Assembly: GCA_001695595.3 (NCBI GenBank)
Contig: MBPM02000087.1
Span: forward strand, 186,001-250,000
DNA: 64,000 nucleotides
Direction: 5' to 3'
Source of the DNA: Plasmopara viticola
Lineage: Eukaryota > Oomycota > Peronosporomycetes > Peronosporales > Peronosporaceae
Shown: positions 1 through 2,032 of the stretch, piece after piece
Numbering within the stretch: the first letter of the stretch is position 1
Layout of the letters: each line of letters opens with the position of its first letter
Notes under the pieces: model-generated
What the model saw: the letters and a program-made list of their open reading frames with translations, nothing else
What the model was told of the DNA's origin: nothing
The model's database searches: none
Translations under genes and position numbers: made by a program

Positions 1-820
1 CAATGCTTTCATGATTCCATCCGCGTCGTTGGCAAGAATGAGGGCGGTATACCGCTCCGTCTCGGCTTGGAATTTCGCTTCGGCAATGAATTTCCCAAAG
101 TGAATGCGCTTGCTCAGTGCCTGCAAGACGGCAATGTCCGCCGTGGCCGTCGATCCAAACTACATTGTCAAGAGAGCCAATAGTATTGTGGCCATGATTG
201 CCAATGATAAGAAGTTGGAAGTATTCGTTACCGCAGTATCGTCGGTAGCGAGAAGTGTCAATCCCGGGAGGATCTTTTCTTGGTACACGCTCATGATGTG
301 GTGGTTGATGTTGATGCGGTTTGGATGGAGGACGCGCGGGTAGTCGAGAAGCGGTAGAATGGGCTCTGGCAACAGGTGTGGAAAGAAGGCGTTTTCATCC
401 GGTGACGTGTACCGACGCGTCAACGCGTGTAGCTTTTCAGTCTCGAGCAGCATAAAGTCCAAGAGACTGCCACTGAACGTCGTGTACTTGCCTTTCAAGC
501 CTCCAAACGCCGCACTTTGACTGCATCATCCCTTGGTTTAATTGCCACTCTCTTGAATAATGTCACATTGGATAAAGTGTACCTACCTGTCTTTCATGCT
601 CACGTAGACCTCCACGTTGCGTGGGAATTGAGCGCGCTCAATCAATGCAAAGATAATCGTCTCTTCTTGACTGCAATTGAATGTCCACCATATCAAAGTT
701 TTGGCTTAAGAGAGAGAGAGAGAGAGTGAAAGGTTTGTACCGAATGAGGACATTGCGAAAATCGTCAAGCTTCACGGGCTTGCGGGGGTCTCCGAACACA
801 ACGTTATGGGAGCTCTGCAT
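1..820 (-). CDS. Chorismate mutase, eukaryotic AroQ type (5' part, 4 exons visible)
   Basis: The enzyme converts chorismate to prephenate, the first step towards phenylalanine and tyrosine. Exons join in phase: 741-820, 587-670, 232-520 and 1-159, all with GT-AG introns; the gene runs off the left edge. The pieces read in order as the family does: ETIIFALIERAQF near the start (compare the yeast ARO7 segment with the same IIF-x-IERSxF pattern), then FSGSLLDFML, SPDENAFFP, NYP-like LDYPRVL, and after the last intron STATADIAVLQALSKRIHFGKFIAEAKF, the most conserved block of the family. The ATG at 818-820 begins a short N-terminus with no obvious organelle leader. The C-terminal active-site and allosteric part is missing only because the window ends. 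Intron 1 contains a (GA)n run at about 713-727. Similarity over all four exons makes the call secure. Confidence 0.93.
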
Positions 821-1075
821 TTTGAAATTTACGAGTGGTGCCCATTGAACTACTGGTAATCGTACCGGTAGTGCAAGCTTCGTTCGTAAATTACATGACC
901 ATCTAGGTTTTTTTTATAATGCGGGCTAGACAAAATTTCAGAGGAAAACTTATCAATGTACGAAGGTTTTGACGCGTCGAGCGCGCTCTTCCAGTGATCT
1001 AATAGCGGCGTTGCTTCATCCTATCGCAGCGACTTGTTAGTGCAGACGACAATAATATTGCCCGAGGATGGCTGC

Positions 1076-2032
1076 CTACCTGAACTTCTTGGCGGGAAAC
1101 CCCGTGGGGTCCTGCCGCACCATCTCCGTGGTCTCATCCAACGTCTCTGGGATGGCAAGCCCACGTTCGACGCGCTTCTGTAACCAAATGTGAAGGGCAG
1201 AAAGCTGCTCGTAGTTCCGTAGCATGTTGTTAATTTCCTCTGGCGACTGCAAGCAAAATCCGAAAAACAACAGACTTAGATTTGCATCTTTACCCATGCA
1301 AAGTAAGCAACGCCTACATGGCCAGCCTTTTCAGAGATTTTCCGTTTAACTTTGCCATTGACTAGCCGAGGATTCTTTAGATACTCGGGCTGCACAAAAG
1401 CGTTCCATCTCGTCAGCATTAAAGCATCAAGCCATTTGAAATGATGTACCTCCATTGCCTCGAGGATCGTCATAAAGGTCTTCATTTGCTGCACAGCAGT
1501 CTAGAACAGCAACAGACCTCAGCACTGCATCTAGTTGGAGCTAATCAGGGTCAAGTTGCAGTACCATGGACGAGACGCCGGGAATCATGGATCGCCAACC
1601 GCTTGCACCACTTGCCTCGGCATTTTTCTACAACCCCACAAAGATGGACGATCAGAAGGAGCTGGTGTCACGAGTCATGAAAGGTATCTGACCTTTAAAT
1701 GGTCGTAGAAATCGTTGAGGTCGAACTTGGTCTGTTGCGAGAGATCAATCATCTGCTGCTTGTATGCCTCTCCTGCGGTAGTATCGTCAGTCTCCAGGCT
1801 ACCGCGTATACATTGCTATCTTAATGAAAAGAGTACCCTGTTTGTGCTGATTGCGCTCCTCGAGCTTGCCCGACACTGTGTTTTTGATATTGGACAACAC
1901 GCCCATAGAGCGCAATTGCATCGACAAGTGTGGATAAGCGACTGCATGCTGCGCGGCAGTGGATTGCACATTTGCGCGGCGGAGCTGTTGCAGCGCTAAG
2001 CGCATCACATTCGCTCGCAGTGCTTTCGCCAT
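1076..2032 (-). CDS. SRP54/Ffh M-domain-only protein with mitochondrial-like leader
   Basis: Six exons join in phase: 1837-2032, 1693-1772, 1565-1627, 1450-1500, 1318-1389 and 1076-1246, giving about 210 aa. Translation starts at the ATG at 2030-2032; the codon at 2074 is TTG. The first 45 residues are rich in R, A, L and Q and lack acidic residues, as in a mitochondrial presequence. The rest follows the M domain of bacterial Ffh: FDLNDFYDHL, then WRSMIPG (Ffh has a LL-x-MIPG block), QMKTFMTILEAM, NPRLVNGKVKRKI, EKAGHSPEEINNML and RNYEQL. This covers the helix-turn-helix that binds SRP RNA. There is no GTPase (NG) domain. The stop at 1076-1078 overlaps a possible donor (TTCAG/GTAGGC); if spliced, only about 8-10 basic residues would be added. 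Mitochondrial location and RNA binding are inferred. Confidence 0.8.

Follow-up and report, generated by a model that had tools for sequence, protein, structure and literature searches.

What purpose may be served by the M domain of the signal recognition particle (SRP) protein Ffh/SRP54 in a protein that lacks the accompanying GTPase (NG) domain? This question is raised by a gene (2032-999) on the minus strand of a 64,000-nucleotide window on contig C87 of the Plasmopara viticola assembly (92.9 Mb, 358 contigs); all positions below refer to this window unless another contig is named. The gene is almost certainly a member of the MAP67/mL105 family, and its product probably acts as an imported protein at the tunnel exit of the mitoribosome, where it would serve as a nascent-chain receptor coupling the mitoribosome to Oxa1 without GTPase or SRP RNA. 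Since this family was already described in 2020-2021, the observation is sound, but not new; no published account of the oomycete protein was found in the open-licence PMC literature on the oomycete mitoribosome and on SRP54/M domain, mitochondria and Phytophthora.

The spliced protein matches PF02978 (SRP_SPB, the Ffh/SRP54 M domain) with 58.5 bits (cut-off 27; E = 9e-16) across residues 81-170 and profile positions 1-88 of 91, which excludes chance similarity, and ends 46 residues later. A Pfam search of this protein yielded no other family at E ≤ 10, hence no NG domain, and an NG domain located upstream of the gene was dropped as a candidate, since PF00448 (SRP-type GTPase) has no match on contig C87. 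The Ffh M domain without GTPase that had been proposed in the preliminary description is thereby confirmed. The leader (residues 1-45) contains six lysine or arginine and no acidic residues, a pattern typical of mitochondrial leaders; its amphipathic moment is unremarkable (reached by 1804 of 5000 shuffles). The methionine content (13 in the 216 residues, leader included, vs 10-12 in the aligned Ffh pieces) does not separate the protein from Ffh.

The six-exon model initially proposed (210 amino acids, given without exon borders) could be rebuilt with its ends and length, the exons being those of Table 1 except for the last, which extended from 1246 to 1076; its five introns are all of the GT-AG type, measure 60-71 nucleotides and keep the reading frame. 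However, the stop codon of this model (1076) is intronic, being located near the start of a sixth intron that follows TTCAG. The seventh exon (22 nucleotides) completes a split arginine codon and then encodes MKQRRY and a stop, resulting in seven exons, 216 amino acids and the C-terminus KKFRMKQRRY. This exon was added because orthologues extend into KQRRY and the window encodes the same tail behind a GT-AG intron: KQRRY continues beyond the last residues of the six-exon model in 15 of 21 aligned orthologues (12 of these with MKQRRY) and forms the C-terminus of 17 of the 26 proteins retrieved by the single-sequence search, with a similar tail in two more.

Affiliation with the MAP67/mL105 family is indicated by segments outside the M domain and by fold. 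Residues 172-205 (post-M) share 9-11 of 34 positions with three mL105-like sequences, as compared to 1-3 of 21-22 with three Ffh sequences, whereas residues 44-79 (pre-M) discriminate poorly (6-9 of 31-32 vs 3-6 of 28); sharing of these segments with mL105 is a discriminator of the present analysis rather than a published definition of the family. The M-domain fold of ribosome-bound mL105 was matched using the predicted fold of a close orthologue. A sequence profile search of the PDB did not retrieve algal or Toxoplasma mitoribosome chains, which surfaced only by fold. The profile also matches Ffh, and the oomycete M core is closer to Ffh than are the compared mL105-like sequences; it may thus help to trace the path from a mobile GTPase factor to a ribosomal component.

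Orthologues in other stramenopiles, for which a search had been suggested, are present across the oomycetes. The single-sequence search yielded 26 proteins at E ≤ 0.001, all named ones being from oomycetes, and the family profile retrieved 43 at the same threshold: 36 of the MAP67 kind (oomycete where named) and seven of the Ffh type (P0037-P0043). Identity over the aligned part amounts to (i) 66-80 % for Phytophthora, Peronospora and other downy mildews (62 % for one broken P. cinnamomi model), (ii) 58-65 % for Pythium and Globisporangium, and (iii) 50-55 % for Saprolegnia, Aphanomyces and Albugo. This gradient by itself points to a peronosporalean source as the most likely one.

MAP67 was described as a mitochondrial protein with homology to the M domain of Ffh, occurring in most major eukaryote lineages, Metazoa, Fungi, Discoba and Metamonada being exceptions; it is regarded as a relic of the SRP pathway of bacteria, and the Tetrahymena mitoribosomal protein mL105 was identified as its orthologue (Pyrih et al. 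2021, PMC8321541). The Tetrahymena mL105 resides at the tunnel exit, and its C-terminal helix lies inside the tunnel, contacting bL23m (Tobiasson and Amunts 2020, PMC7326499). For Polytomella, a density in association with mL105 is likely the OXA1L insertase, and in human mitoribosomes mL45 occupies the place where mL105 would be (PMC9576764). Furthermore, mL105 is mentioned for the Toxoplasma mitoribosome (PMC11742926).

On this basis, the nuclear-encoded oomycete orthologue, found as one copy in the assembly, would be imported into the mitochondrion, and its M-domain bundle may dock at the tunnel exit of the large mitoribosomal subunit, a position shown for Tetrahymena mL105. The C-terminal segment and the basic tail may extend into the tunnel mouth, and the protein could touch nascent chains and help keep the ribosome attached to the Oxa1 insertase, neither GTPase cycling of the SRP type nor SRP RNA being involved. 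Gene structure, M-domain homology, colinearity with the solved mL105, predicted fold of a close orthologue and lack of an NG domain are established directly; docking and hand-over to Oxa1 are most likely by reference to the published relatives. The earlier suggestion that a stand-alone mitochondrial M domain aids co-translational insertion together with the ribosome or Oxa1 is therefore supported by homology to MAP67/mL105 (PMC8321541, PMC7326499, PMC9576764). Weighing against this role, the membrane contact at the tunnel exit of Chlamydomonas was ascribed to mL119 (PMC8660880).

The Ffh-like core is kept in the oomycete protein, including the finger-loop segment GWRSMIPGV missing from the three mL105-like sequences, and shares 30 of 92 core positions with one Ffh (P0038). 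Together with the signal-peptide binding suggested for MAP67 by Pyrih et al. (PMC8321541), this could also point towards a mobile mitochondrial mini-SRP, i.e., a soluble factor cycling on and off certain nascent chains via their signal anchors instead of a permanent ribosomal protein. Such a factor would have no known release step, because the protein lacks a GTPase domain and the PF00448 search of the assembly revealed no FtsY of the mitochondrial type; moreover, the post-M segment is common to the ribosome-bound form, rendering this possibility rather unlikely. Equally doubtful is the speculation that oomycete MAP67 kept an Ffh-like signal-binding groove (MIPGV finger loop) lost in ciliates and, as a GTPase- and RNA-free mini-SRP, selects certain mitochondrially made proteins rather than acting as a passive tether.

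Basic residues persisting in KVKRK (orthologue alignment) might speak for an RNA-binding mitochondrial SRP whose 4.5S-like RNA would be encoded in the mitochondrion. However, the Ffh stretch A-x-G-[SC]-G following R-K/R-I-A, which we take to be a conserved SRP-RNA contact, reads S-E-K-A-G in the window protein when aligned with the Ffh sequences, arguing against an SRP RNA partner. An SRP RNA is apparently missing from published mitochondrial Ffh (mtFfh) systems as well (PMC8321541). The search for a bacterial small SRP RNA was negative (52 of 3944 first-look candidates scored; control found in 11 of 14 genomes), but carries little weight as the assembly apparently lacks the mitochondrial genome. 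An RNA-dependent particle is thus highly improbable, and of the retained RNA or ribosome binding envisaged earlier, mitoribosome binding is supported by homology while SRP-RNA binding appears disfavoured. Finally, even though the M domain is unmistakable and normally preceded by NG domains in SRP54/Ffh, the chance that the gene is a fragment or mis-predicted part of a complete SRP54/Ffh gene of the mitochondrial or cytosolic type is practically negligible, considering that contig C87 is devoid of PF00448 matches, that the SRP54 gene is located on another contig (C27), that an upstream in-frame stop precedes the first in-frame ATG, and that the short form is conserved across oomycetes (24 of the 43 profile-search proteins have 199-230 amino acids and PF02978 as sole Pfam domain).

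PF00448 matches in the assembly are confined to contigs C27 (SRP54 gene, 519-amino-acid frame) and C23. On the latter, a second SRP-type GTPase gene is represented by two pieces and presumably encodes the alpha subunit of the receptor; a third SRP-type GTPase was not found in this search. Genome domain searches treated each exon separately and may therefore have overlooked divergent split genes; the PF02978 genome search missed the window gene itself. A second MAP67 copy was dropped as a candidate: all five matches belong to the window's own gene (two candidates scored; a divergent split copy may have escaped). The apparent absence of the mitochondrial genome is based on COX1, for which the search yielded five partial matches (C71, C19, C262 and C80), two above cut-off and four with in-frame stops (standard code), which are possibly nuclear copies of mitochondrial DNA. 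Oxa1-type PF02096 matches are located on C9 (above cut-off, with three in-frame stops, perhaps from read-through introns) and C44 (below cut-off). Of 855 first-look candidates for eukaryotic SRP RNA, 26 were scored, which gives at least 26 matches; two tandem arrays, at C84:301909-316132 (19 matches) and C88:1764-4718 (5 matches), account for 24 of these, with equal scores and a spacing of mostly ~663 bp. Within the window, ARAGORN detected no transfer RNA, and no Rfam match reached the gathering score.

Table 1. Features of the seven-exon M-domain gene (window positions)
Feature	Position	Strand	Description	Support or remark
Exon 1	1837..2032	-	Start codon and leader free of acidic residues; pre-M helix begins; codons 1-65 plus first base of codon 66	Colinear with orthologues
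Intron 1	1773..1836	-	64 nt, GT-AG, phase 1	
Exon 2	1693..1772	-	EAYKQQMIDLSQQTKFDLNDFYDHLK; M domain begins	Pfam match, orthologue alignment
Intron 2	1628..1692	-	65 nt, GT-AG, phase 0	Border also implied by exon-3-skipping models P0020 and P0024
Exon 3	1565..1627	-	Finger-loop region with MIPGV	Orthologue alignment
Intron 3	1501..1564	-	64 nt, GT-AG, phase 0	Border implied by P0020 and P0024
Exon 4	1450..1500	-	TAVQQMKTFMTILEAME	Orthologue alignment
Intron 4	1390..1449	-	60 nt, GT-AG, phase 0	
Exon 5	1318..1389	-	PEYLKNPRLVNGKVKRKISEKAGH	Orthologue alignment
Intron 5	1247..1317	-	71 nt, GT-AG, phase 0	Apparently retained at same place in database models P0024 and P0025
Exon 6 (end corrected)	1080..1246	-	Final helix of M domain, post-M motif WLQKRVERGLAIPETLDE	
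Intron 6	1021..1079	-	59 nt, GT-AG, phase 2	Holds TAG previously read as stop
Exon 7 (new)	999..1020	-	Basic tail MKQRRY and stop	KQRRY in 17 of 26 proteins

The corrected structure is of practical use for annotation, since public oomycete records of this gene are mostly unnamed, in part misnamed and in some cases apparently broken. Apparent exon skips, retained introns or odd extensions are seen in P0020, P0024, P0025, P0026 and P0032 (376 amino acids), the skips and retentions listed in Table 1 coinciding with borders of the window gene. P0003 (Phytophthora cinnamomi) and P0019 (Globisporangium splendens) are labelled chorismate mutase, yet match PF02978 only; this name may stem from the adjoining gene. 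The downstream neighbour of the window gene, likewise on the minus strand, is chorismate-mutase-like (window 1-525 examined; start probably an ATG near 820), two pieces matching solved chorismate mutases (E = 9.7e-22 and 1.1e-15) and one matching in Pfam below cut-off.

Among known systems, Tetrahymena mL105 (PDB 6z1p, chain AT) likewise has a stand-alone Ffh-like M domain without NG, shares the post-M motif and aligns over residues 15-201; it differs in that the oomycete protein retains the MIPGV finger-loop segment. MAP67 is correspondingly an M-domain-only protein, for which a mitochondrial location is generally predicted, but the SecA-like C-terminal extension of its Chloroplastida members (PMC8321541) has no Pfam match in the oomycete protein. 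Bacterial Ffh/SRP54 agrees in M-domain sequence and fold (PF02978), whereas the window protein has neither N nor G domain, an altered RNA-contact stretch and a different post-M segment. The mtFfh of Naegleria, Goniomonas and others is also an Ffh relative in mitochondria, but occurs together with mtFtsY (PMC8321541), in contrast to the present assembly, in which the PF00448 search revealed no additional GTPase of the SRP type.
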